This document shows, piece by piece, positions 36,779 to 48,437 of a DNA stretch of 64,000 bases (the first letter of the stretch is position 1; each line of letters begins with the position of its first letter). Source of the stretch: Alphaproteobacteria bacterium (lineage in GTDB: Bacteria > Pseudomonadota > Alphaproteobacteria > Sphingomonadales > Sphingomonadaceae). The DNA lies in contig JAUIIG010000003.1 in the NCBI GenBank assembly GCA_030431875.1, forward strand, positions 1 through 64,000. The letters are read 5' to 3'. Both the position numbers and the translations under genes were made by a program. The notes below the pieces were generated by a model, which saw only the letters and a list, made by a program, of their open reading frames with translations, was not told the DNA's origin and did not search any database.

Positions 36779-37002
36779 ACACATTCCTCACCATCCTGCT
36801 CATCTTCTTCGCCATCATGGCGGCAGTCTCACTGGTGCGCGGCATCGTCGCCTTCCTGCAGACGACCAAGATCGACCTCGAAAGCGGCGGTGAAAACTCC
36901 AAGGCGCTGATGGAAGCCCAGAACCGCGCCATGTTCTCGCGCATCAAGTACCAGGCCCTGGCAATTGCCGTCGTCGCGGTGCTGCTCTTGATTAATCGGT
37001 AG
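36775..37002 (+). CDS. HIG1-like two-helix membrane protein
   Basis: A protein of 75 aa with two membrane helices (residues about 4-27 and 57-73) separated by a polar loop (TKIDLESGGENSKALMEAQNRAMFSRIKYQ), the arrangement of twin-transmembrane HIG1-like proteins of alphaproteobacteria. In many relatives such a gene precedes the cobalamin adenosyltransferase, as here. The start overlaps the gluQ stop. The function is unknown. Confidence 0.78.
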   Translation: MNTFLTILLIFFAIMAAVSLVRGIVAFLQTTKIDLESGGENSKALMEAQNRAMFSRIKYQALAIAVVAVLLLINR

Positions 37003-37014
37003 TAGTGAGTGACA

Positions 37015-37112
37015 CGGTCGGCGGTTAGCCGACCGCAAGGGCGACCGCCCGCCCGCAGCGGGCGCAGCTTGCCTGCGCGCATAGCGAGGACGAAAGCGCG
37101 GAGGCGCTTTCG
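37015..37112 (+). repeat. Structured intergenic repeat, copy A
   Basis: First of four copies of a hairpin-rich element. From 5' to 3': an eight-pair hairpin CGGTCGGC/GCCGACCG (37015-37035); the core GGGCGACCGCCCGCCCGCAG (37039-37058); a middle hairpin GCGCAG/CTGCGC; the box GCGAGGAC (37084-37091); and a terminal perfect nine-pair hairpin CGAAAGCGC/GCGCTTTCG with loop GGAG (37091-37112). It ends against the ribosome-binding site (GGAAG, 37112-37116) of the adenosyltransferase gene. Confidence 0.85.
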
Positions 37113-37121
37113 GAAGATGAA

Positions 37122-37688
37122 ATGGTAAAATTGAACAAGATCTACACCCGCACTGGGGATGACGGCACCACCGGGCTCGTCGACGGGTCCCGGCTACCCA
37201 AGCATGCAGCGCGGATGCAGGCAGTAGGCGACGTCGACGAAGCCAATGCTGCCATCGGCATGGCAGCCGTGGTGGCCGAGGGCGAACTTTGCGCCGACCT
37301 TGTCCGTTTGCAGAACGACCTGTTCGACCTCGGCGCCGACCTCGCCACGCCGGGCGAGGACTTCGAACCCGGCGAGATGGTGCTGCGGATCGTTCCGGCA
37401 CAGGCCCAATGGATCGAGACGCGGATCGACGCGCTCAACGCCGCGCTGGAGCCGCTGACCAGTTTCGTCCTGCCCGGCGGCAGCGAGCTGGCCGCGCGGC
37501 TGCACGTGGCGCGCACCGTCGCGCGGCGGGCGGAACGCTCCATGACCGCGCTGGCGCAAGGCGAACCGGTCAACCCGGCGGCGCTGGCCTTCATCAATCG
37601 CTTGTCCGACTACCTCTTCACCGCCGCCCGCGTCGCCAATGATGGCGGCAAGGACGACGTGCTCTGGACGCCCGGCGCCAACCGGTAG
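37122..37688 (+). CDS. Cob(I)alamin adenosyltransferase, PduO type
   Basis: A trimeric ATP:corrinoid adenosyltransferase of 188 aa that makes adenosylcobalamin from cob(I)alamin. The N-terminal ATP loop YTRTGDDGTTGL (residues 8-19) and the C-terminal RTVARRAERS and NRLSDYLFTAAR motifs are characteristic of the PduO family. The ATG at 37122 has GGAAG 5 bases upstream; that site directly follows a hairpin of repeat copy A. A three-codon open frame ATG-AAA-TGG-TAA (37116-37127) overlaps the start in another frame. Confidence 0.94.
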   Translation: MVKLNKIYTRTGDDGTTGLVDGSRLPKHAARMQAVGDVDEANAAIGMAAVVAEGELCADLVRLQNDLFDLGADLATPGEDFEPGEMVLRIVPAQAQWIETRIDALNAALEPLTSFVLPGGSELAARLHVARTVARRAERSMTALAQGEPVNPAALAFINRLSDYLFTAARVANDGGKDDVLWTPGANR

Positions 37689-37741
37689 AATTTGGAACAA
37701 GCCTCCTTGCTCGCCCGTTGGTGAGGCAAAGGAGACAATTG

Positions 37742-38095
37742 ATGAGCAATTCCAAGGCTGAAAGCCCCGAAGCGCGTCAGGCGGGCCTTGCCCCCGAGAC
37801 CCATAACGACGAGCAGGACGAGCACCTGATGCAGGCGCAGGCCGTATCAGCGGAAGCGCGCCGCACGACCGTGACCACGCGCATGCCGACCGAGAGTGAA
37901 AAGGCTCATGGCGGCATCACCCTGCTCAACATGTCGAAGCAAGACACCGTCGACCACATGCGCGACATGGAAAGTTCGGGACGCATCGACATGGATGCTT
38001 ACACTGGCGAACCGAACCACGATGATAACGAGGGCAAGTACGGCAAGGGCCAAGCGGCCAAGGACGATGCGATCGAACAGCCGATCAACAGCTAG
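37742..38095 (+). CDS. Acidic hydrophilic hypothetical protein
   Basis: A protein of 117 aa rich in Asp, Glu, Gln, Asn and Lys with no hydrophobic segment, probably largely disordered. An excellent Shine-Dalgarno sequence (AGGAG) sits 7 bases before the ATG at 37742, so it is a real gene. I do not recognise a family; the NMSKQDTVDHMRDMESSGRID stretch (residues about 63-83) is the most structured part. It resembles stress-type hydrophilic proteins. The stop shares CTAG with DUF202. Confidence 0.7.
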   Translation: MSNSKAESPEARQAGLAPETHNDEQDEHLMQAQAVSAEARRTTVTTRMPTESEKAHGGITLLNMSKQDTVDHMRDMESSGRIDMDAYTGEPNHDDNEGKYGKGQAAKDDAIEQPINS

Positions 38096-38505
38096 CCGCC
38101 GCCGATACTGCCATCGTTGAGGATCCAGAGGCCGGCGGTCAGCACTGCTGCGCCGAAAGCAACGCACCATGACAGCAGCCGGAAATTGGGCGGCGACGTG
38201 CCTTCCAGTTCGTGTGCGTGGAGCTTGTCCAGCGTATTACAGGCGCGCTTGGATGCCGCCAGCGCCAGCCAGCCTCCGGCAAGGATGAACACGGTGGCGA
38301 TAGCCCGGGCCAGCCACGGTGGCTCGAAATCGCCGAACACCGCACGAAAACCCAGCCCGATACCGATGGCAGCGAAAGCCGTGCGGATCCACCCGGCGTA
38401 AGTGCGTTCCATCGCCATGATGGTGCGATCCTCGGCAAGGTCCGTGCGGAACTCCGCCCAGTGGGTGGACTTGTCTTCGTCGTCGGGCGGATCGTCTTGC
38501 GCCAT
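38092..38505 (-). CDS. DUF202 (YidH-family) membrane protein
   Basis: A protein of 137 aa with three membrane helices. The DUF202 signature is LAEDRTIMAMERTYAGWIRTA, where the conserved ERT(L/Y)xxWxR motif opens the first helix. The family is common in bacteria; the function is unknown. Its stop codon overlaps that of the opposite gene in a CTAG. Confidence 0.9.
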   Translation of the reverse strand: MAQDDPPDDEDKSTHWAEFRTDLAEDRTIMAMERTYAGWIRTAFAAIGIGLGFRAVFGDFEPPWLARAIATVFILAGGWLALAASKRACNTLDKLHAHELEGTSPPNFRLLSWCVAFGAAVLTAGLWILNDGSIGGG

Positions 38506-38551
38506 GCCGCCAGGTTAGCGGGCCAGCGCGCTTTGGCAAATCGGCGTGTGC

Positions 38552-41182
38552 TCAGTCTTCGTCGGCTTGCCGCTTGAGCTGGTAAAGCAGGTCCAGCGCC
38601 TCGCGCGGGGTGAGGGCATCGACGTCGAGAGCTTGCAGCTCTTCGCGCAGCAGGTCGCGGTCTTCCTCGACCTCGTGGGCGACAGCCGCGAAGAGCGGCA
38701 GTTCGCCAAGGCCAGCGGCCAGCCCGCCGGTTTCGGCGCGTCCCTTTTCCAGCCGATCGAGCACCGACTTGGCGCGCTTGACCACTTGTGGCGGCACACC
38801 CGCTAGTTTGGCGACGGCGAGGCCATAGGAGCGGTCCGCCGCGCCCTCGGCCAGCTCGTGCAGCAGGACAAGGTCGCCCTTCCATTCTTTGGCGCGGACG
38901 TGGTGCAGGCTCAGCGCCTCGCAGGTCTCCGCCAGTCGCGCCATCTCGTGATAGTGCGTCGCGAAGAGGCAGCGGCTCTTGTTGGTCTCATGGATCGCTT
39001 CGGCGACGGCCCATGCCAAGGCGAGGCCGTCGTAGGTGGAAGTGCCGCGTCCGACTTCGTCGAGGATCACGAAACTGCGTTCGCCCGCCTGGCTCAGGAT
39101 GGCGGCGGTCTCGACCATCTCGACCATGAAGGTGGATCGCCCGCGCGCCAAGTTGTCCGACGCGCCGACGCGGCTGAACAACTGGTCTACCAACCCGATC
39201 CGCGCGGCGTGGGCGGGGACATAGCCGCCCGCCTGGGCCAGCAGCACGATCAGCGCATTCTGGCGCAGAAAGGTCGACTTGCCGCCCATGTTGGGCCCGC
39301 CGACCAGCCACAGCCGGTCGCGCTGCGAAAGCGCGCAGTCGTTGGCGACGAAGCGTTCGCCCTGCGCGGCGAGAGCCGCTTCGACCACGGGGTGGCGTCC
39401 GCCCTCAATGGCGAGCACGGGCTCTTCGGTGACGTCAGGGCGGCACCATTCGCCATCGCTCGCGCGCTCGGCCTGTCCAGCGGCAACGTCGAGCCGGGCC
39501 AGTGCTGCGGCAGTGGCGGCAATGGCCTCACGCCGCGCACAGATGCGCTCCACGAACCCTTCGAAATGCGCCTCTTCCGCCGCTAGCGCATGGCCGCCGG
39601 CCTCGGCGATGCGGTTGGCTTCCTCGTGCAGATGCAGCGAGTTGAAGCGCGCGGCATTGGCCATGGTCTGGCGGTGGGTGAAGCCGGAATCCTGCGCCAT
39701 CAGCTTGTCGGCGTGCTTGCTCGGCACTTCGATGAAATAGCCGAGCACGCCGTTGTGCTTGATCTTGAGCGAAGGGGTGTCCGTTTCCTCGCGGTAGCGC
39801 GCTTCCAGCGCGGCAATGGCGCGGCGGGCATTGCCCGAGGTGGCCCGCAGGTCATCCAGCGCGGCGTCGTAGCCTTCCGCGATATAGCCGCCGTTCTGCC
39901 GCTCGGTGGGCGGCGAGGGCACCAGCGCGCGGCTGAGCAGGTCGGTCAGTTCGCCGTGTCCGCGCAAATGCGGCAGCAGGCTGTCGAGCAGGGTCGGCCG
40001 GTCCGGCTGGCCTTGCAGCAGTTCGTGGATGCGTCGCGCTTCGCTCAACCCGTCGCGTACCTGGCCCAGGTCGCGCGGACTGCCGCGACCGGCAACGATC
40101 CGGCCCAGCGCGCGGCCAATATCGGGCAGGCTCCGCAACATGCCGCGCAAGTCCGCCCGCAACAGGGGATCGGCGAGCACGAAGCTGACCAGCGCCAGCC
40201 GCTCCTCGATCGCTGGCCGGTCTGCTAACGGTGCAGCGAGATCTTCGGCGAGTTGTCGCGCACCCGCGCCGGTAACGCAGCGGTCGATTGCCGCGATCAG
40301 GCTGCCGGTGCGGCCACCCTGCTGGCTGGTGAGGATTTCAAGGCTGGCCCGGGTTGCCTCATCCATGGCCATGTGTTCGCCGCTGGCGCGGGCTTGCGGT
40401 GGCAGCAGTAGCGGCAGCGAACCGCGTCCGGCATGTTCGAGATAGGCCACCAGCCCGCCCGCTGCCGCAAGCATGGCGCGGCTGAACTGGCCAAACCCGT
40501 CGAGCGTCGCCACGCCGTGGACCTTCTTGAGCCGCGCCTCCCCGGCGTCGCTTCCGAAGTCGCTACGGGGGCGCAGGACTGCTTCGAACGGAGCTTCGTC
40601 CCAGCCTTCGGGCACGACCACTTCGCTTGCCCCGATCCGCGCCAGCACGGCGGGCAGGCGCTCGGGCGCGCATTCCTCCAGCGTCATGGCCCCGGTCGAG
40701 ATGTCGCAGGCCGCCACGCCGCAGGTTCCGCGCACATCGCAGACGGCTGCCAGCATGTTGGCGCGGCGCGGCTCCAGCAGGGCCTCTTCGGTGAGCGTGC
40801 CCGCCGTTACGAAGCGCACGATGTCGCGCTTCACCAGCGCCTTCGACACCGGCGAGCCTTCGCGCCGGGCGCGTTCCTTGGCCTCGTCCGGCGTTTCCAC
40901 CTGCTCGGCGATCGCCACCCGGCATCCTGCCTTGATCAGCCTTGCCAGGTAGCCTTCCGCCGCATGCACCGGCACGCCGCACATGGGCACCGGCTCCCCG
41001 CTGTGTTCGCCGCGCGTGGTCAGCGCGATATCGAGCACGCCCGCAGCCGTTTTTGCGTCGTCGAAGAACAGCTCGAAGAAGTCGCCCATGCGGTAGAACA
41101 ACAGGCAATCGCCGGCCTCCGACTTGAGGTCGAAATATTGCGCCATCATGGGAGTTGCAGTTGAGGATTGAGGGCCGGCCAT
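38552..41182 (-). CDS. mutS: DNA mismatch repair protein MutS
   Basis: Mismatch-recognition ATPase, 876 aa, full length. The mismatch-binding domain carries GDFFELFFDDA (Phe-x-Glu) near the N-terminus. The ATPase domain has Walker A GGPNMGGKST, the Walker B aspartate in FVILDEVGRG, and the dimerisation His/STYDGLALAWA segment. It starts at the ATG at 41182; an internal start at the MMAQYFDLK methionines is possible. mutL is not adjacent. Confidence 0.97.
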   Translation of the reverse strand: MAGPQSSTATPMMAQYFDLKSEAGDCLLFYRMGDFFELFFDDAKTAAGVLDIALTTRGEHSGEPVPMCGVPVHAAEGYLARLIKAGCRVAIAEQVETPDEAKERARREGSPVSKALVKRDIVRFVTAGTLTEEALLEPRRANMLAAVCDVRGTCGVAACDISTGAMTLEECAPERLPAVLARIGASEVVVPEGWDEAPFEAVLRPRSDFGSDAGEARLKKVHGVATLDGFGQFSRAMLAAAGGLVAYLEHAGRGSLPLLLPPQARASGEHMAMDEATRASLEILTSQQGGRTGSLIAAIDRCVTGAGARQLAEDLAAPLADRPAIEERLALVSFVLADPLLRADLRGMLRSLPDIGRALGRIVAGRGSPRDLGQVRDGLSEARRIHELLQGQPDRPTLLDSLLPHLRGHGELTDLLSRALVPSPPTERQNGGYIAEGYDAALDDLRATSGNARRAIAALEARYREETDTPSLKIKHNGVLGYFIEVPSKHADKLMAQDSGFTHRQTMANAARFNSLHLHEEANRIAEAGGHALAAEEAHFEGFVERICARREAIAATAAALARLDVAAGQAERASDGEWCRPDVTEEPVLAIEGGRHPVVEAALAAQGERFVANDCALSQRDRLWLVGGPNMGGKSTFLRQNALIVLLAQAGGYVPAHAARIGLVDQLFSRVGASDNLARGRSTFMVEMVETAAILSQAGERSFVILDEVGRGTSTYDGLALAWAVAEAIHETNKSRCLFATHYHEMARLAETCEALSLHHVRAKEWKGDLVLLHELAEGAADRSYGLAVAKLAGVPPQVVKRAKSVLDRLEKGRAETGGLAAGLGELPLFAAVAHEVEEDRDLLREELQALDVDALTPREALDLLYQLKRQADED

Positions 41183-41298
41183 GGAGACAGCGGGACTAGC
41201 CCCGTGCGCGCCGATTCGGGAAGGGCGGGCGTGCCGCTTTCCCCTATCGCAGCACGAAAACCCGCTCTATGGTCCGCGTAGCAAAGGGGGATTCACGC

Positions 41299-43563
41299 GT
41301 GGCCGACGAAAAGAAGACCAGTTTCACCGAGCGCGAGGCGCTGTTCTACCACGAGGCTATCCGCCCGGGTAAGATCGAGATCATCGCCTCCAAGCCGATG
41401 ACCACCCAGCGCGACCTGAGCCTGGCCTATTCGCCCGGCGTCGCCGTGCCCGTGCAGGCCATCGCTGACGATCCCGCCAATGCTGCCAAGTACACTGCCA
41501 AGTCGAACCTTGTGGCCGTGATTTCGAACGGCACGGCGATCCTTGGCCTGGGCAATCTCGGTGCGCTGGCCTCGAAGCCTGTCATGGAAGGCAAGGCGGT
41601 GCTGTTCAAGCGCTTCGCCGACGTCGATTCCATCGACATCGAGCTCGATACCGAAGACCCCGAGAAGTTCATCGAGGCGGTCGCCCTGATGGAGCCGACC
41701 TTTGGCGGCATCAACCTGGAAGACATCGGCGCGCCCGAATGCTTTATCATCGAGCAGGCTTTGCGTGAACGGATGAACATTCCGATCATGCATGACGACC
41801 AGCATGGCACGGCGATCATCACCGCTGCTGGCCTGCTCAACGCCTGCCACCTGACCAAGCGCGACGTTGCCGAGGTGAAGGTTGTGGTGAACGGTGCCGG
41901 TGCCGCCGCGCTCGCCTGTACCGCGCTGGTGAAGGCCATGGGCGTCAAGCACGAGAACGTCATCGTCTGTGATCGCAAGGGGCCGATCTATCCCGGCCGC
42001 GAAGGCGTGGACCAATGGAAGAGTGCCCACGCGGTGGAGACCGAACACCGCACGCTGGAAGAGGCGCTGAAGGGGGCGGACATCTTCCTCGGCCTGTCGG
42101 CTGCCGGCGCGCTCAAGCCCGAATGGGTGGCCGAGATGGCGGACCAGCCGATCATCTTCGCCATGGCCAACCCGACGCCGGAAATCATGCCGGACGAAGC
42201 CAAGGCCGTGCGTCCCGATGCCATCGTGGCGACCGGGCGCAGCGACTTCCCCAACCAGGTCAACAACGTGCTCGGCTTCCCCTTTATCTTCCGCGGCGCG
42301 CTCGATGTGCGGGCCACCGCGATCAACGAGGAAATGAAGGTCGCCGCCGCCCGTGCCATTGCCGAACTGGCCCGCGAACGTGTGCCCGAGGAAGTGGCCG
42401 CCGCATACGGCAAGAATCACCAGTTCGGCGTCGAATACATCATCCCGGCGCCCTTCGATCCGCGCCTGATGGAGGTTGTCTCCTCCGCCGTGGCCAAGGC
42501 GGCGATGGATTCGGGTGTGGCGCAATCGCCGATCGAGGATTTCGACGAATACCGCCACCAGCTCAAGGCGCGGCTCAACCCGACGACGTCGGTGCTCACC
42601 CGCGTTTACGAAGACGCCAAGGCCAATCCCAAGCGGATGGTCTTCGCGGAGGCGGAGGAAGAAGTGGCGCTGCGCGCCGCCATCCAGTTCCGCGATTTCG
42701 GCTATGGCACGCCGATCCTTGTCGGCCGGACCGAGAAGGTGCGCGAGAAGCTGGTGGAACTGTCGGTGGAAGATCCCGACAGCTTCGAGATCGCCAACTC
42801 GAACACCTACGAGAAGATCGAGCCGATGGTGGAATACCTCTACAAGCGGCTCCAACGGCGCGGTCATACCGAGCGCGACGTGCGCCGCATGGTGAACCAG
42901 GAACGCAACGTCTTCGCCGCCCTGCTGGTAGCATTGGGCGAAGGCGATGGCATGATCACCGGCCTGACCCGGACCTTCAGCCAGACCGCGCGCGAGATTG
43001 GCCGCGTGCTTGATCACAAGCCGGGCCATACGCCCTTCGGCATGCACATGGTGATCGGCAAGAACCACACCACCTTCCTCGCCGACACGGTGATCAACGA
43101 GCGACCCAGTGCCGAACAGCTGGCCCATATCGCCAAGGAAAGCGCTGCCGTCGCCCGCCGCATGGGCCACGAACCGCGCGTCGCCTTCCTGTCCTATTCC
43201 ACCTTCGGCAACCCGCCGGGACAGTGGCTGGGCAATATCCGCGACGCCGTGGCGATCCTCGATGCCGACGAAACGGTGAACTTCGAATACGAAGGCGAGA
43301 TGGCGCCCGATGCCGCGCTCAACGACAAGGTCATGGCGCTCTACCCGTTCAGCCGCCTGTCCGGCCCGGCCAACGTGCTGATCATGCCCGGCCTGCAGTC
43401 TGCCAACCTTTCGGCCAAGCTGCTGCGCGAACTGTCCGGCGATACCACCATCGGCCCGCTGATGATCGGTTCGGAAAAGCCGGTGCAGATCGCCCCCATG
43501 ACCTCGCTGGCACCCGACGTGCTGACACTGGCCGTGCTGGCCTCTGCGGGGGTCGTGGGCTAG
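41299..43563 (+). CDS. maeB: NADP-dependent malic enzyme with phosphotransacetylase-like domain
   Basis: A two-domain protein of 754 aa. The N-terminal malic-enzyme domain (residues about 1-425) has SLAYSPGVAVP, the metal/substrate segment PIMHDDQHGTA and the nucleotide loop GAGAAALAC. The C-terminal domain (about 430-754) is a phosphate-acetyltransferase-like regulatory module, thought to bind acetyl-CoA. It converts malate to pyruvate, generating NADPH. The start is the GTG at 41299, with AAGGGGG 8 bases upstream; an upstream ATG in the same frame has no such site. Confidence 0.95.
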   Translation: MADEKKTSFTEREALFYHEAIRPGKIEIIASKPMTTQRDLSLAYSPGVAVPVQAIADDPANAAKYTAKSNLVAVISNGTAILGLGNLGALASKPVMEGKAVLFKRFADVDSIDIELDTEDPEKFIEAVALMEPTFGGINLEDIGAPECFIIEQALRERMNIPIMHDDQHGTAIITAAGLLNACHLTKRDVAEVKVVVNGAGAAALACTALVKAMGVKHENVIVCDRKGPIYPGREGVDQWKSAHAVETEHRTLEEALKGADIFLGLSAAGALKPEWVAEMADQPIIFAMANPTPEIMPDEAKAVRPDAIVATGRSDFPNQVNNVLGFPFIFRGALDVRATAINEEMKVAAARAIAELARERVPEEVAAAYGKNHQFGVEYIIPAPFDPRLMEVVSSAVAKAAMDSGVAQSPIEDFDEYRHQLKARLNPTTSVLTRVYEDAKANPKRMVFAEAEEEVALRAAIQFRDFGYGTPILVGRTEKVREKLVELSVEDPDSFEIANSNTYEKIEPMVEYLYKRLQRRGHTERDVRRMVNQERNVFAALLVALGEGDGMITGLTRTFSQTAREIGRVLDHKPGHTPFGMHMVIGKNHTTFLADTVINERPSAEQLAHIAKESAAVARRMGHEPRVAFLSYSTFGNPPGQWLGNIRDAVAILDADETVNFEYEGEMAPDAALNDKVMALYPFSRLSGPANVLIMPGLQSANLSAKLLRELSGDTTIGPLMIGSEKPVQIAPMTSLAPDVLTLAVLASAGVVG

Positions 43564-43567
43564 CCGC

Positions 43568-44254
43568 CTACCACGGCACTTCGGTGCCGTCGTAAGCAAG
43601 GAAAGCGTGGCGCGGCGTGGCCTCGGCCTCGAGCAGGTCGAGCATGCCGTTCACGCTCGTCTCCACGTCGATCAGGCCGTTCGGCCCGCCCATGTCGGTG
43701 CGCACCCAGCCGGGGTGCAGCGAGATCACGCCCACGCCGCGTTCCTCTGCGTGCTTGGCGAAGAGCGAGCGCGCCAGCATGTTCTGCGACACCTTGGACA
43801 GGCGGTAGAGGTTCGTGCCGCCCGAGGAATCGTCGATCGAACCCATCTTGCTCGACATCATGGCAATCGTGCCGCCCTGCTTCATCAGCGGCAGCAGCGC
43901 GAGGGCCGCCTGCGCCGGGGCAACGGCATTGGTCATCACGATATCGGCGACATTGTCACGCGTCAGGTCTTCGATCCCTTGCGCGTCACCGCCGTAGATA
44001 CCGGGATTCATCACCAGCAGGTTGACTGAACCTTCCGCGCAGGCATGGGCAATCCCGGCCACTGCCTGCTCGTCAGTCACGTCGCACTTCATGACTTCGA
44101 CCAAGGGTGCATTGGCCTCGGCAACGTCGTGCAGATCGGGGCTGGTGCTGCGTTCGGTGGCGATCACCTTGTACCCGCGCCGCGCCAGTTCCTGCGTCAG
44201 TCCCAAGCCGAGGCCGCGCGAGGCGCCGATCACGATGGCTGTCTTGTCACTCAT
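43568..44254 (-). CDS. Short-chain dehydrogenase/reductase
   Basis: A Rossmann-fold oxidoreductase of 228 aa. The nucleotide loop is GASRGLGLG (residues 10-18), NxG appears as NPGIYGG, and the catalytic set is Ser in MMSSKMGS and YRLSK (YxxxK). SLHPGWVRTDMGG follows as in the classical family. It resembles carbonyl-reductase-like SDRs; the substrate is unknown. It converges on maeB with a 4-base gap. Confidence 0.9.
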   Translation of the reverse strand: MSDKTAIVIGASRGLGLGLTQELARRGYKVIATERSTSPDLHDVAEANAPLVEVMKCDVTDEQAVAGIAHACAEGSVNLLVMNPGIYGGDAQGIEDLTRDNVADIVMTNAVAPAQAALALLPLMKQGGTIAMMSSKMGSIDDSSGGTNLYRLSKVSQNMLARSLFAKHAEERGVGVISLHPGWVRTDMGGPNGLIDVETSVNGMLDLLEAEATPRHAFLAYDGTEVPW

Positions 44255-44312
44255 GCAAATGTCCTTTCAATCCTTTCGGACTGAACTGGTGCGCGAGCAG
44301 GGAAGTTCCAAC

Positions 44313-45026
44313 CTATTTCCGCCGATAGCGGAAGTACCAAACCTCGTGCCCGTAGGTGTTGCGCGCCTTGTGCTCGTAACGCGTCTCGGGCCAGCCGGAG
44401 GGGCGGTTGCGGAAGCTGTTCGGGCCGTCGGTCACCCATTCGAAGGGTCCGCTCTCGGGGTCCATGAACCGCTGCATCACCATCAGCGCGTGGCGGACAT
44501 AGACCGGATGGTCAGTGCCGAAACGGAACTCGCCACCGGGCTTCAGCTTGTCGGCGAACATCTGCACCGGCCCATCGTTCATCATCCGCCGCTTGGCGTG
44601 CTTGGCCTTGGGCCAGGGATCCGGGTGCAGCAGGTAGAGCATGGTCAGCGATCCGTCCGGGATACGCGAGAGCACTTCCAGCGCGTCGCCGTGGTGGATG
44701 CGGACGTTGGCCAGCGTGCCATCACGGACATGGGTCAGCGCCTGCGCCACGCCGTTGAGGAAGGGCTCGGCACCTATGAAGCCGTGGTCGGGCAGCAGGT
44801 CGGCGCGGTAAGCCATGTGCTCGCCGCCGCCGAAGCCAATCTCGAAATGCAGCGGACGGTCCTCGCCGAACAGGCGCTCTGCCGTCACAGGCCCCTCCGC
44901 CGGCACCGCGATGCGCGGCAACAGGGTGTCGACCAGCTCCTGCTGCGCGGCGCGCAGGGGCTTGCCCTGGCTGCGGCCATAGAGCCGGTTGAGCGTTGTC
45001 GGATCGCCTTCCTTGTGCGCTGTCAT
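44313..45026 (-). CDS. trmB: tRNA (guanine-N7-)-methyltransferase
   Basis: A SAM-dependent enzyme of 237 aa making m7G46 in tRNA. The SAM-binding loop is EIGFGGGEH, and the family motifs HPDPWPKAKHAKRRM (catalytic Asp) and PGGEFRFGTDH are present. The start ATG at 45026 matches the family; the open frame reads on upstream through non-coding sequence. Repeat copy D lies 45 bases upstream in the same orientation. Confidence 0.95.
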   Translation of the reverse strand: MTAHKEGDPTTLNRLYGRSQGKPLRAAQQELVDTLLPRIAVPAEGPVTAERLFGEDRPLHFEIGFGGGEHMAYRADLLPDHGFIGAEPFLNGVAQALTHVRDGTLANVRIHHGDALEVLSRIPDGSLTMLYLLHPDPWPKAKHAKRRMMNDGPVQMFADKLKPGGEFRFGTDHPVYVRHALMVMQRFMDPESGPFEWVTDGPNSFRNRPSGWPETRYEHKARNTYGHEVWYFRYRRK

Positions 45027-45070
45027 GTCTGCTGCGCATACATTCTTTTTGTTTGGCCTCAAGCGCCGGC

Positions 45071-45164
45071 GTGGCCGTCCGGCCACTTGGCTGTCCTCGC
45101 TTTCGGGCAGGCAAGCTGCCCACGCTGCGGGCGGGCGGTCGCCCTGGCGGCTGCTTTGCAGCCG
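45071..45164 (-). repeat. Structured intergenic repeat, copy D
   Basis: Minus-strand copy. Read 5' to 3' from 45164: hairpin CGGCTGC/GCAGCCG with AAA loop; core GGGCGACCGCCCGCCCGCAG (45144-45125), identical to copies A and B; middle hairpin GGGCAG/CTGCCC with loop CTTGC; box GCGAGGAC (45100-45093); terminal hairpin GTGGCC/GGCCAC with loop GGAC (45086-45071). The middle-hairpin loop CTTGC is the same as in copy A while its stem bases are changed on both sides. Confidence 0.85.
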
Positions 45165-45257
45165 AAGCGCAGGCCGTGGTGGCTCCCCTCCTTTGTCCAG
45201 TTCGCAAATAACCCGCGGGGTTGAGACTTGCGTCCGGCTTCGGCTAGGCGCGCGGCC

Positions 45258-46469
45258 ATGGAACAGGCCATTGCACTTTTCGAAGCCCAGCCCGGATGGG
45301 CGCAGACCGTCATCGCGCTCGCCGTGCTGGTGCTGGTCGCGCTGGCGGTCAACTACCTGCTCAAGCGCGTCCTGCTGCGGCTGGCCGCGCCCTTCCTCGA
45401 CACGCGCAGCCTGACCGCGGACAAGGCTGCCTTCCGGCTGGCGACCGTCGCGCCGTTGCTGATCGTTGCCAATGGTATCCAGCATGTTCCCAACCTTCCC
45501 GAAGAACTGACTTTGCTCGTCCGTAACCTTGCCGAGGCCTCGATCGTGCTGAGCGTGGCCATGGCGATGAGCAAGGCTCTCGACTACGTCGACGAGGTCT
45601 ACCGCCGCCGCCCCGATGCGCACATGCGGCCGATCAAGGGCTATGTGCAGGTCCTCAAGATCGTCATCTACTGCGGCGCGGCAATCCTCGGCATCTCGGC
45701 GCTGATCGAACAGTCGCCGCTGCTTTTGCTGTCCGGCCTGGGGGCCATGGCCGCCGTGCTGCTGCTGGTGTTCAAGGACACCATCCTCTCGCTCGTCGCC
45801 TCGGTCCAGTTGACCAGCAACGACATGCTGCGGGTTGGCGACTGGATCGAGATGCCCGGCATGAACGCCGATGGCGACGTGATCGACATCGCGCTGCACA
45901 CGGTGAAGGTGCAGAACTTCGACAAGACCATCACCACCATTCCCACGCACCGGCTGATTTCCGACAGTTACCGCAACTGGCGCGGGATGAGCGATGCCGG
46001 CGGTCGCCGCATCAAGCGCGCCCTGCCGCTGGACCAGAACTCCGTCCGCTTCCTGTCTGACGAGGAAGTCGACAACCTGCGCCGTTTCCGCCTGCTTTCC
46101 GATTACCTTGCCGACAAGGACAGGGAATTGTCCGAGTGGAACGCGCGCGAGCTGGCGGGCGACAGCAACCCGGTCAACGCGCGGCGGATCACCAACGTGG
46201 GCACCTTCCGCGCCTATGTGATCGCCTACCTGCGCGCCCATCCGGAGCTGGAGGACAAGCATTTCACCCTGCTGGTCCGCCAGCTGGAACCGACCCCGCA
46301 AGGCCTGCCGCTGGAAATCTATTGCTTCACCGGAACCACCGACTGGGGCGAGTACGAACGCATCCAGGCTGACATTTTCGATCACCTGCTGGCGATCCTG
46401 CCCGAGTTCGGCCTGCGCCTGTTCCAGCAGCCGAGCGGGCTCGACCTTCAGGGACTGCGCGCCGCCTAG
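45258..46469 (+). CDS. Mechanosensitive channel of the MscS/YbdG type
   Basis: An inner-membrane protein of 403 aa with about five N-terminal hydrophobic segments (residues 10-190) and a cytoplasmic MscS domain. The pore-lining region GLGAMAAVLLLVFKDTILSLVASVQL and the beta-domain VGDWIEMPGMNADGDVIDIALHTVKVQNFD match the YbdG group, a low-conductance channel responding to hypo-osmotic stress. The start is the ATG at 45258. It is divergent from trmB, with repeat D in between. Confidence 0.92.
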   Translation: MEQAIALFEAQPGWAQTVIALAVLVLVALAVNYLLKRVLLRLAAPFLDTRSLTADKAAFRLATVAPLLIVANGIQHVPNLPEELTLLVRNLAEASIVLSVAMAMSKALDYVDEVYRRRPDAHMRPIKGYVQVLKIVIYCGAAILGISALIEQSPLLLLSGLGAMAAVLLLVFKDTILSLVASVQLTSNDMLRVGDWIEMPGMNADGDVIDIALHTVKVQNFDKTITTIPTHRLISDSYRNWRGMSDAGGRRIKRALPLDQNSVRFLSDEEVDNLRRFRLLSDYLADKDRELSEWNARELAGDSNPVNARRITNVGTFRAYVIAYLRAHPELEDKHFTLLVRQLEPTPQGLPLEIYCFTGTTDWGEYERIQADIFDHLLAILPEFGLRLFQQPSGLDLQGLRAA

Positions 46470-46478
46470 GCAGAATTA

Positions 46479-47066
46479 TTACTGCCCGGCAGCCTCCTGC
46501 CGTTCCCGCAGCAGGCGAATTTGTGTCAGGACTTCCTGCCCGGCGGCAAAGAGCGGGGACAGCGGGTCATGTCCGTTCACAAGCTCTTCGCCATTCGCAT
46601 TGCCGGAATAGACGCCGCTTTCCGTGATGATGAAGAACCTTACTTCGTCTCGATCAGGAAGAGGATAGTCCGTCGCTTGCGGCAAGGCTGCGACATGTTC
46701 GGCTGCGGCCATGACGAACTGCTGCGCGGCCTCCGCCACCTGTGCAGATTCCTGCCCGGAGCCGATAATCCCGCCGCCGGTCGACAAGTAGATGCTGGCA
46801 TCTCCGCTGGCGAAGGCGACGATGGTCACGGTGCCACCTCGCATGTCCATGTCCATGACAACGCCGTAGGGTTCGGTCCTGTCGCCCGGCTCAAGTCCGA
46901 TATCGTCCGTCCGCGTGGTCAGCGCCAGCTCGCGCAAGCCGAGGTACATTTGGGTCGCTTCCTCTTGCGACTGGGGTGCCTTGGCGCGCGCCCCTGAAGG
47001 CAGGATGCCAAGCACACAAGGCGCGAACAGCAATGCTGCCAGGACAATTCTGAGGGTCACAGGCAC
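46479..47066 (-). CDS. Secreted hypothetical protein
   Basis: A protein of up to 195 aa with a Sec signal peptide (hydrophobic residues about 5-22, cleavage near GARA-KA). The mature part is acidic and lacks cysteines, so it is probably a soluble periplasmic protein. I do not recognise a family. The start is a GTG at 47066 or the one two codons later; neither has a strong ribosome-binding site. It lies downstream of ctrA on the same strand but beyond a strong terminator, so it is transcribed separately. Confidence 0.65.
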   Translation of the reverse strand: MPVTLRIVLAALLFAPCVLGILPSGARAKAPQSQEEATQMYLGLRELALTTRTDDIGLEPGDRTEPYGVVMDMDMRGGTVTIVAFASGDASIYLSTGGGIIGSGQESAQVAEAAQQFVMAAAEHVAALPQATDYPLPDRDEVRFFIITESGVYSGNANGEELVNGHDPLSPLFAAGQEVLTQIRLLRERQEAAGQ

Positions 47067-47129
47067 TCCAGTCTTCTCGCTGCCGTCATTGCCTGTCGCC
47101 TATGCAGGGCGGGGCCTGTAGGCAACAGC

Positions 47130-47163
47130 AAAACGGCCCGCCACCGTCAGGTAGCAGGCCGTT
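47130..47163 (-). terminator. Rho-independent terminator after ctrA
   Basis: On the minus strand AACGGCCTGCTACC (47163-47150), a four-base TGAC loop, and GGTGGCGGGCCGTT, ending in TTTT at 47133-47130. The 14-pair stem has only two G-T wobbles. It lies about 30 bases after the ctrA stop. Confidence 0.88.
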
Positions 47164-47191
47164 CGCAACCCCCCATTCGGGTACGTCAGTT

Positions 47192-47887
47192 TCAGGCGGC
47201 TTCTTCCACCGCATCCGGATCGCGCAGCACGTAGCCGCGGCCCCAGACGGTTTCGATGTAGTTCTCGCCGCCGCAGGCGCTCGACAGCTTCTTGCGCAGC
47301 TTGCAGATGAACACGTCGATGATCTTCAGTTCCGGCTCGTCCATCCCGCCATAGAGGTGGTTGAGGAACATTTCCTTGGTCAGCGTGGTGCCCTTGCGCA
47401 GCGAAAGCAGCTCGAGCATCGCGTATTCCTTGCCGGTGAGGTGGACGCGGGCACCGTCGACTTCGACGGTCTTGGCGTCGAGGTTCACCGCCAGCTTGCC
47501 GGTGCGGATGACCGACTGGCTGTGGCCCTTCGAGCGGCGCACCACGGCGTGGATGCGGGCGACCAGCTCGTCACGGTGGAACGGCTTGGTCACGTAGTCG
47601 TCGGCACCGAAGCCGAACGAACGGATCTTGGAATCCATTTCGGCAATGCCCGACAGGATCAGCACCGGCGTCTGCACCTTGGCCACGCGCAGCTTCTTGA
47701 GCACGTCATAGCCATGCATGTCGGGCAGGTTCAGGTCGAGCAGGATGATGTCGTAATCATACAGCTTGCCCAGATCGAGGCCCTCTTCGCCGAGATCGGT
47801 CGAGTAGACGTTGAACCCCTCGGTCGTGAGCATCAGCTCGATCGCCTTGGCGGTTGTCGGTTCGTCTTCGATCAACAGAACGCGCAT
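47192..47887 (-). CDS. ctrA: Cell-cycle response regulator CtrA
   Basis: An OmpR-type response regulator of 231 aa. Asp51 ([14 protein letters not shown]) is the phospho-acceptor. The receiver domain covers residues 1-116 and the winged-helix DNA-binding domain about 125-225, with [17 protein letters not shown] and [12 protein letters not shown] as in Caulobacter CtrA, to which it is nearly identical in these motifs. It is phosphorylated through CckA-ChpT. Targets are TTAA-N7-TTAA sites in cell-cycle, flagellar and GTA genes. The start is the ATG at 47887. Confidence 0.96.
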
Positions 47888-48008
47888 CGTATTACCCCTT
47901 CGTGTCCCCGTAGGATTGCCCCCTTGGGAGCAGTTGCCTGGAATTAACCACGCCACTTCTCACCAAAAAAGGTTAATAAAGAGTTTCCCGCGTTAAGACT
48001 TTCCGTGT

Positions 48009-48022
48009 GAGTCTTTCGAGTC
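48009..48022. promoter_or_regulatory. Paired GANTC (CcrM) sites upstream of ctrA
   Basis: GAGTC at 48009-48013 and again at 48018-48022, five-base-pair matches to the CcrM methylation target GANTC, separated by four bases. They lie about 125-135 bases upstream of the ctrA start. In Caulobacter a GANTC site in the ctrA P1 promoter couples its transcription to replication fork passage. Confidence 0.5.
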
Positions 48023-48037
48023 ACACTGTTTGGTTTG

Positions 48038-48128
48038 CGCTCCGGCCTCCGCCGGAGCGTCCTCGGCGCTGTTCTCTCCACTACGGCTGCGCCTCCGTTG
48101 CGAGGCACCTGCGGGCGGGCAGTCGCCC
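48038..48128 (-). repeat. Structured intergenic repeat, copy C
   Basis: Minus-strand copy. Read 5' to 3': core GGGCGACTGCCCGCCCGCAG (48128-48109), one substitution from the other three copies; middle hairpin GCCTC/GAGGC; box CCGAGGAC (48066-48059 region); terminal perfect nine-pair hairpin CGCTCCGGC/GCCGGAGCG with loop GGAG (48059-48038), the same loop as copy A with an entirely different stem. The 5' hairpin is not evident. It is oriented like ctrA, about 150 bases upstream of it. Confidence 0.8.
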
Positions 48129-48230
48129 GTGCCCTTCGCTGCGCTCGGGTTTGGGTGCTGGCCGTTAAGGTGTGGGGGGGAAGTCGTTAAGGTCGGGCCT
48201 CCTTTCTGACGCCAGAAAGCACGTGCTGAT

Positions 48231-48326
48231 CGGGCCGCAGGCTCGCAAGGGCGACCGCCCGCCCGCAGCGGGCGCGTAGCGAAGCGAAGCGCGTCTAGCG
48301 AGGACGCACCGACGCAGGTCGGTGCG
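48231..48326 (+). repeat. Structured intergenic repeat, copy B
   Basis: Plus-strand copy. It has hairpin CGGGCC/GGCTCG with a GCA loop (48231-48245); the core GGGCGACCGCCCGCCCGCAG (48249-48268), the flanking 31 bases 48245-48275 being identical to copy A; box GCGAGGAC (48298-48305); and a terminal perfect nine-pair hairpin CGCACCGAC/GTCGGTGCG with loop GCAG (48305-48326). It lies downstream of, and antisense to, the end of the gene at 48438. Confidence 0.85.
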
Positions 48327-48437
48327 CAAAACAAACCTGACAAACCTGACATCGTGACGATGCCCGCTTGCCCCCGCAAACCCGCAGCGAGCGGGCGTTT
48401 CCGCGCCCAACACGAAGTTGACACCGGGCCGCCAAAA

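Follow-up and report, generated by a model that had tools for sequence, protein, structure and literature searches.

A paired hairpin repeat of the Erythrobacteraceae is probably a REP-like mobile DNA element whose terminal hairpins are replaced as blocks

Repetitive extragenic palindromic (REP) sequences of the CGTC type, which include the Rickettsia repeats RPE-4 and RPE-6, are described mostly from alphaproteobacteria in the main text of Di Nocera et al. 2013 (PMC3733652), which also mentions E. lithoralis. The REPINs and GTAG REPs are associated with RAYT transposases, and compensatory changes in their hairpins have already been reported, as passages of PMC3116915 describe. Here we analyse a repeat that occurs in four copies, A to D, in a stretch of 64,000 nucleotides (the window; all coordinates are window positions) of contig JAUIIG010000003.1 from assembly GCA_030431875.1 (Sphingomonadaceae). 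A preliminary description of the window had proposed that the repeat is either a folded RNA or a DNA element similar to REPs or to miniature inverted-repeat transposable elements (MITEs), with arms replaced as units. We conclude that it is probably a non-autonomous mobile DNA element of the Erythrobacteraceae, similar to REPs and bacterial interspersed mosaic elements (BIMEs), and that the replacement of its terminal hairpins as modules most likely gives rise to the covariation of their stems.

The 20-base core of the repeat is present at all four places reported previously (37039 +, 45125 −, 48109 − with one change, and 48249 +); 0.11 matches with up to three mismatches are expected per shuffled window, and four were observed. 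The four copies are real but not all independent. Copies A and D belong to one type, alpha, copy C belongs to a second type, beta, and C and D together form a single head-to-head unit (Table 1). The boxes match the original description, and so do the terminal hairpins of A, C and D, but the GTGGCC/GGCCAC hairpin of copy B is out of register with them and is part of a different terminal module, AGCCAAG...GGCGCTTGAGGCCAAAC, which we name gamma. The GGGCAG/CTGCCC hairpin with a CTTGC loop, previously placed in copy D, is in fact located in copy B, and the middle hairpin of D is longer.

The window copies are not the only ones, as a genome-wide search showed; they are members of a dispersed family. 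The source genome is a draft of 2.96 Mb in 91 contigs that is 96% complete. It contains 29 cores with up to two mismatches, and the reversed control gave none. Covariance models were built from 13 of 24 alpha copies (R1) and 10 of 14 beta copies (R2). At E ≤ 0.01 they produced 52 and 50 matches, respectively, the union of which comprises 53 half-elements: 18 pairs with partners less than 70 bp apart and 17 solo half-elements. All 18 pairs are arranged head to head, each with a minus-strand half on the left and a plus-strand half on the right. Seventeen of them combine alpha with beta, as judged by the better model score, and one combines beta with gamma. The paired unit is 260–320 bp long. Each half-element contains, in order, a variable hairpin H1, GCAA, a small core hairpin, CCCGCAG, a middle hairpin, the box GCGAGGAC or CCGAGGAC, the terminal hairpin H3, and an A-rich tail that ends in CAAAC or a similar sequence. 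The family is multi-copy, extragenic (according to heuristic gene calls), palindromic, dispersed, and often inverse-paired, as REPs and BIMEs are in the broad sense. Mini-copies or remnants that contain the box, H3 and tail, without the core, were observed at L205, L147 and L015 near 1680–1730, which suggests that this part can stand alone.

Paired bases in the stems change together, as had been noticed in the four window copies. Pairs changed on both sides make up 9 of 27 in alpha and 9 of 29 in beta. The number of double-changed cells is 29 in alpha and 23 in beta, compared with 10.2 and 6.5 in shuffles, and none of 500 shuffles reached either value; with slid structures the number dropped to 0–6. 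A weaker measure, the count of pairs changed on both sides, was reached by 6 of 500 shuffles for alpha and 0 of 500 for beta. These controls are lenient, since the structures were drawn from the same sequences and the copies are related.

Terminal hairpins were collected from loci of the source genome and its relatives, orthologues included, using the pattern GAGGA, eight bases, loop [GC][GC]AN and eight bases, with the core upstream. Sites with fewer than five Watson-Crick pairs (22 of the 143 found) were discarded. The 121 hairpins kept include 98 that are perfect, represent 55 distinct stems, and have the loops GGAG (88), GGAT (27), GCAG (3) and GGAA (3). Their mismatches showed no significant preference for G·U over A·C (12 G·U, 7 A·C and 5 other; 7, 6 and 5 in a smaller set of 91 of 109 sites). 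Because single transitions in a perfect stem yield G·U and A·C equally, these counts do not point to RNA; a weak G·U preference may nevertheless be present. The type of H3 stem shows no linkage to other parts of the copy: among 21 alpha copies, pairs with the same stem (n = 15) have 21.3 differences, and all pairs have 20.8 (p = 0.57).

As RNA, single copies fold only modestly better than shuffled sequences, with z scores on the strand of the preliminary description and on the other strand, respectively, of −3.21 and −3.19 for A, −2.17 and −2.00 for B, −2.44 and −1.68 for C, and −2.18 and −0.54 for D. One whole unit folded with DNA parameters gives an extended imperfect palindrome from which the two H3 hairpins branch as side arms (z −6.8 against shuffles), and the C/D unit folded as RNA reached a z score of −4.1. 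Comparison with Rfam did not identify a described family, either in the window at the gathering threshold or for the C/D unit at E ≤ 1. Despite the strong covariation, the evidence favours a DNA element over an RNA.

The mode of stem change can be followed in two sister species, G227 and G234, which share 95% identity at one gene and were placed together in a midpoint-rooted tree of two genes without shown support. They contain 23 and 19 R1 matches, respectively, and 15 loci from each were used for comparison. Eleven orthologous filled sites were aligned, with loci 88.7–92.9% identical. Among the 22 combinations of locus and strand, 13 were comparable and nine lacked a match in one or both sisters. 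Nine of the 13 orthologous H3 hairpins have no pair changed on both sides, although four of these nine carry a one-sided change. The remaining four hairpins differ at 3, 5, 4 and 4 pairs, and none differs at one or two. When 16 pair changes were placed randomly over 13 × 8 pairs, nine or more unchanged hairpins occurred in 0 of 100,000 trials. The stems change by three to five pairs or not at all, and therefore by block replacement, in agreement with the earlier suggestion that arms are replaced as units. For two of the four replaced hairpins, the adjoining body is nearly identical (3 and 4 differences in 66 positions), and so are the flanks. Donor copies within the same genome are possible, as three of the eight stems at the four replaced sites recur at another examined locus of the same genome, and six recur at another examined locus in either sister. 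At L015 of the source genome, one hairpin has arms of two different stem types, which meet at its GGAG loop. Chimaeric hairpins were rejected as a general signature, with one clear case in 204 box sites, most of the others being good hairpins (116) or chance sites.

We propose the following model. The complete form of the element is an imperfect palindrome of related but distinct alpha and beta arms placed head to head, and solo arms exist as well. Each arm closes with a mostly perfect hairpin of 8 bp, whose loop of four bases is rich in purines, followed by the A-rich tail, and the element sits at gene boundaries, mostly directly after stop codons. At a fixed site, a new H3 stem takes the place of the old one as a whole. 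The most likely route is ectopic exchange with another dispersed copy, using the homology of box and body on one side and the microhomology of the tail on the other. The covariation would then result from block replacement and not from stepwise compensatory selection on an RNA. We infer that the replaced blocks came from other copies through such an exchange, and that a separate enzyme mobilises the element.

The occupancy of sites differs between sister species. Thirty loci were compared upstream of the adenosyltransferase gene. Eight contain an element, which stands in either orientation across species; the remaining 22 lack one and show a short gap, other sequence or a different upstream gene. 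This site is filled in G227 and empty in its sister G234 and in G226, G209 and G208. Upstream of trmB, a box search flagged 5 of 30 loci, of which three (the source genome, G215 and G014) contain elements when inspected by eye and two are chance matches; one further locus, L242, has a gamma-like sequence missed by the box search. The sisters G215 and G224 differ at this place. A search for empty sites with joined flanks at four loci found one filled/empty pair, beside a glutamine-synthetase-like gene, one site filled in both species and two with other sequence in the sister. Upstream of ctrA, the element starts within a few bases of the same place in 11 of 29 readable loci, with H3 stems that differ by eye, and it lies farther upstream in one more.

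The sequences next to two of these sites vary as well. The ctrA upstream sequence (window 47956–48035 and orthologous loci) has at least two forms in the genus, near GAGTCTTTCGAGTCACA or, in four loci, GAGTCTTCCTTGCAACA, and none of the 29 loci read showed an element beyond the second form. The sequence AATGTATGCGCAGCAGACATGA, between the gamma-type element and the trmB start (window 45022–45043, minus strand), is common to three non-sister species (the others being represented by L233 and L235), unlike the other 27 loci, perhaps due to recombination of the trmB locus between species.

Genes were called by a heuristic based on G+C content at third codon positions, which miscalled the surroundings of copy B and probably of L008, L023 and L045. 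Run on 31 of the 35 units, it placed 14 between convergent genes, 15 between co-directional genes and 2 between divergent genes; the corresponding totals over every gap of the window are 11, 42 and 11. A stop codon of a coding-like frame is present within 80 nt of 30 of the 45 outward H3 ends. At 26 of these 30 junctions the hairpin starts no more than 15 nt from the stop codon, and at 10 of them the distance is exactly 10 nt. The closeness arises partly because convergent gaps in the window are short anyway (median 7, n = 11). It is also reported for CGTC and GTAG REPs in the main text of PMC3733652. An intrinsic terminator was considered and rejected: none of the sequences read has a T-run after the hairpin, whichever sense is taken.

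Among genomes of the family, R1 matched 59 of 199, the source genome included, at E ≤ 1e-4 with strict filters. In a sample of the class it matched 4 of 289 genomes, three of which belong to the same family and one of which has a weak match and is 64% complete. An exact 27-mer occurs in 27 stretches of named genomes, some from the same genome, and 25 of these are labelled Erythrobacter, Porphyrobacter, Qipengyuania, Aurantiacibacter, Erythrobacteraceae or Sphingomonadaceae. A contig labelled as a gammaproteobacterial metagenome-assembled genome (L077) also has the exact 27-mer and is possibly mis-binned Erythrobacter sequence. Relatives contain, separately from this family, short repeats that match a CGTC-1 consensus (L101, L111 and L080; six with up to three changes in 779 kb of other loci), and no match to this consensus was found in the 246 kb of partly overlapping loci scanned from the source genome.

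Several observations weigh against a mobile DNA element with exchanged hairpins. The source genome gave no match to Y1_Tnp/RAYT (PF01797), the only transposase family covered by the search. Y1_Tnp is present in 31 of 199 family genomes, and the element is not commoner with the gene (6 of 31 genomes) than without it (53 of 168). No R1 match at E ≤ 0.01 was found in 30 Y1_Tnp loci of the family, the sole match having an E of 0.08. RAYT as the mobiliser is thus not supported. No target duplication was visible by eye at two filled/empty comparisons, neither of which excludes a short one; the ends of the element are inverted, and for an assignment to the MITEs of a DDE insertion sequence these comparisons are too few and not clean enough. 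At the other two of the four replaced hairpins, the body differs at 36 and 44 of 66 positions, in ungapped counts inflated by indels. Stems from replaced sites recur within their own genome no more often than stems are shared with a third species: 5 of the 19 stem types of the source genome occur in G227 and 6 in G234. In each of the four window copies, the strand read in the preliminary description gives a better fold than the opposite strand, by a margin that ranges from slight to clear. The excess of G·U over A·C, although non-significant, has the direction expected of an RNA read on the alpha strand, and the alpha middle stem contains one invariant and one mostly G·U pair.

The last three of these observations, together with the strong covariation and the position at mRNA ends, would be explained by a structured RNA, cis-regulatory or small, the hairpins of which are kept by compensatory selection and the copies of which are dispersed RNA genes or leaders. 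However, such an RNA has no match in Rfam, its stems change in large steps or not at all and independently of the body, its occupancy varies between sister species, and it stands in either orientation at one orthologous site. We therefore consider the folded RNA, which the preliminary description had offered as one of two readings of the two-sided stem changes, highly improbable. Perfect stems could also be maintained without exchange between copies if local template switching in replication (quasi-palindrome correction) rewrote one arm of a hairpin from the other. The mechanism is described for RNA hairpins in PMC8794818, it would keep the arms as perfect as observed, and the search for donors of the new stems did not establish any. 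Arm-to-arm copying alone, however, does not create a stem that differs at several pairs on both sides, and most stems from replaced sites recur elsewhere in the sisters, which makes template switching a rather improbable source of the new stems.

Differing stems at orthologous sites could instead reflect independent insertions of whole half-elements at favoured gene-end sites. The filling of the same gap in different orientations across species is consistent with this, as are the two replacement cases in which the body differs too, whereas the nearly identical bodies and flanks of the other two are not, and we regard independent insertion as unlikely. It is similarly doubtful that a dedicated non-RAYT activity swaps the H3 cassette between dispersed copies at the box and tail, leaving the rest of the element and its site unmoved; if it does, hairpins circulate genome-wide as interchangeable parts. 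A further explanation, compatible with a mobile DNA element, is that the hairpins are retained for a function at the 3′ ends of mRNAs, as an exonuclease barrier or in ribosome stalling or bidirectional termination, with mobility being secondary. Such roles have been proposed for REPs of other bacteria, the short distances to stop codons and the prevalence of convergent and co-directional surroundings agree with them, and REPs less than 16 nt from a stop codon are reported to lower translation (Liang 2015, as cited in a passage of PMC12306157). On the other hand, no T-run follows the hairpin in the sequences read, convergent gaps often have only a few bases in any case, and 22 of 30 adenosyltransferase loci are without the element, so the gene does not need it. 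A selected role at mRNA 3′ ends is accordingly a tentative possibility. A mobile DNA element with hairpins replaced as modules probably remains the best explanation.

Table 1. Positions of the repeat copies and their parts in the window.
Feature	Position	Strand	Basis
Copy A, solo alpha half-element	37008..37127	+	R1 100.9 bits
Copy A, first hairpin H1	37015..37035	+	fold
Copy A, 20-base core, holds small GGGC-GACC-GCCC hairpin	37039..37058	+	core search, fold
Copy A, box GCGAGGAC	37084..37091	+	sequence
Copy A, terminal hairpin H3, 8-bp stem GAAAGCGC, loop GGAG	37092..37111	+	sequence, fold
Copy B, solo half-element, alpha-like body and gamma terminal module	45042..45171	-	R1 36.9 bits, orthologous loci
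Copy C, beta half-element, left arm of C/D pair	48023..48156	-	R2 65.5 bits, R1 50.6 bits, orthologous loci
Copy C, terminal hairpin H3, stem GCTCCGGC, loop GGAG	48039..48058	-	sequence, fold
Copy D, alpha half-element, right arm of C/D pair	48224..48341	+	R1 123.6 bits
Copy D, terminal hairpin H3, stem GCACCGAC, loop GCAG	48306..48325	+	sequence, fold
Complete head-to-head beta/alpha unit, C and D	48023..48341	.	covariance models R1/R2; geometry as in 18/18 genome pairs

Copy A lies between the stop codon of a small gene (37000–37002) and the start codon (37122) of a cobalamin adenosyltransferase-like open reading frame (ORF), copy B is upstream of a trmB-like ORF, and copy C is upstream of a ctrA-like response regulator ORF. 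A frame of 690 codons (44313–46385, minus strand) crosses copy B into the trmB-like ORF, and automatic annotation could fuse residues encoded by the repeat onto the protein.

The repeat is a natural example of strong covariation between paired bases that most likely arises from the block replacement of DNA hairpins, although such covariation is usually read as a sign of functional RNA. Such repeat families could mislead RNA discovery based on covariation.

Enterobacterial BIMEs have other sequences, smaller arms and a different tag than this family. They have in common with it mosaic units of inverted REPs in alternating orientation, as described in part of PMC2817692. REPINs, too, are miniature mobile DNA, with inverted doublets as the unit in addition to singlets (passages of PMC3116915). 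However, the GTAG tag at the foot of the stem is lacking here, GGAG forming the loop and not the foot, and the source genome lacks a detected Y1_Tnp gene, unlike REPIN/RAYT systems. Searches of the open-access literature for this repeat in Erythrobacter or sphingomonads, and for related mechanisms, yielded only REP surveys (PMC3733652 without its figures and supplements), and no description was found there of long arms of two types combined with hairpin replacement at orthologous sites.

Among described repeats, the CGTC REP superfamily comes closest. According to the main text of PMC3733652, CGTC REPs share with this family stems of 8–9 bp (8 bp here), loops of 4–5 bases and several stem types per family; head-to-head dimers predominate, often as heterodimers, no transposase is linked, and the repeats lie close to the 3′ ends of genes in convergent or co-directional arrangement. 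The same text gives an unpaired CGTC (or TGTC, CCTC) beside the stem, A–T as the first and second stem pairs, a CCA tail and a length of 20–40 bp. In contrast, the tag of this family is GGAC within GAGGAC, which, among the 29 copies identified through the core alone, precedes the stem in 25, CGTC being present only as the complement on the opposite side of the stem. The first stem pair is G–C (86 of 91 hairpins, with A–T as the second pair in 47 of 91, in a search whose pattern fixed the stem length and part of the loop), the CCA tail is lacking, and each arm has about 75 further conserved bases with more hairpins, within a unit of 260–320 bp. The tag and the A–T stem pair thus speak against membership of the CGTC REPs, and the head-to-head dimers and the lack of a PF01797 match fit it; we do not file the repeat as a member, since tag, first stem pairs, tail and size differ. 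In its working, the repeat resembles the CGTC REPs: it is paired, lacks a detected transposase, stands beside gene ends and has several stem types. As a REP-like family without a detected RAYT, in which pairs of sister species allow gain and hairpin replacement to be followed, it bears on the question of what moves CGTC-type REPs.

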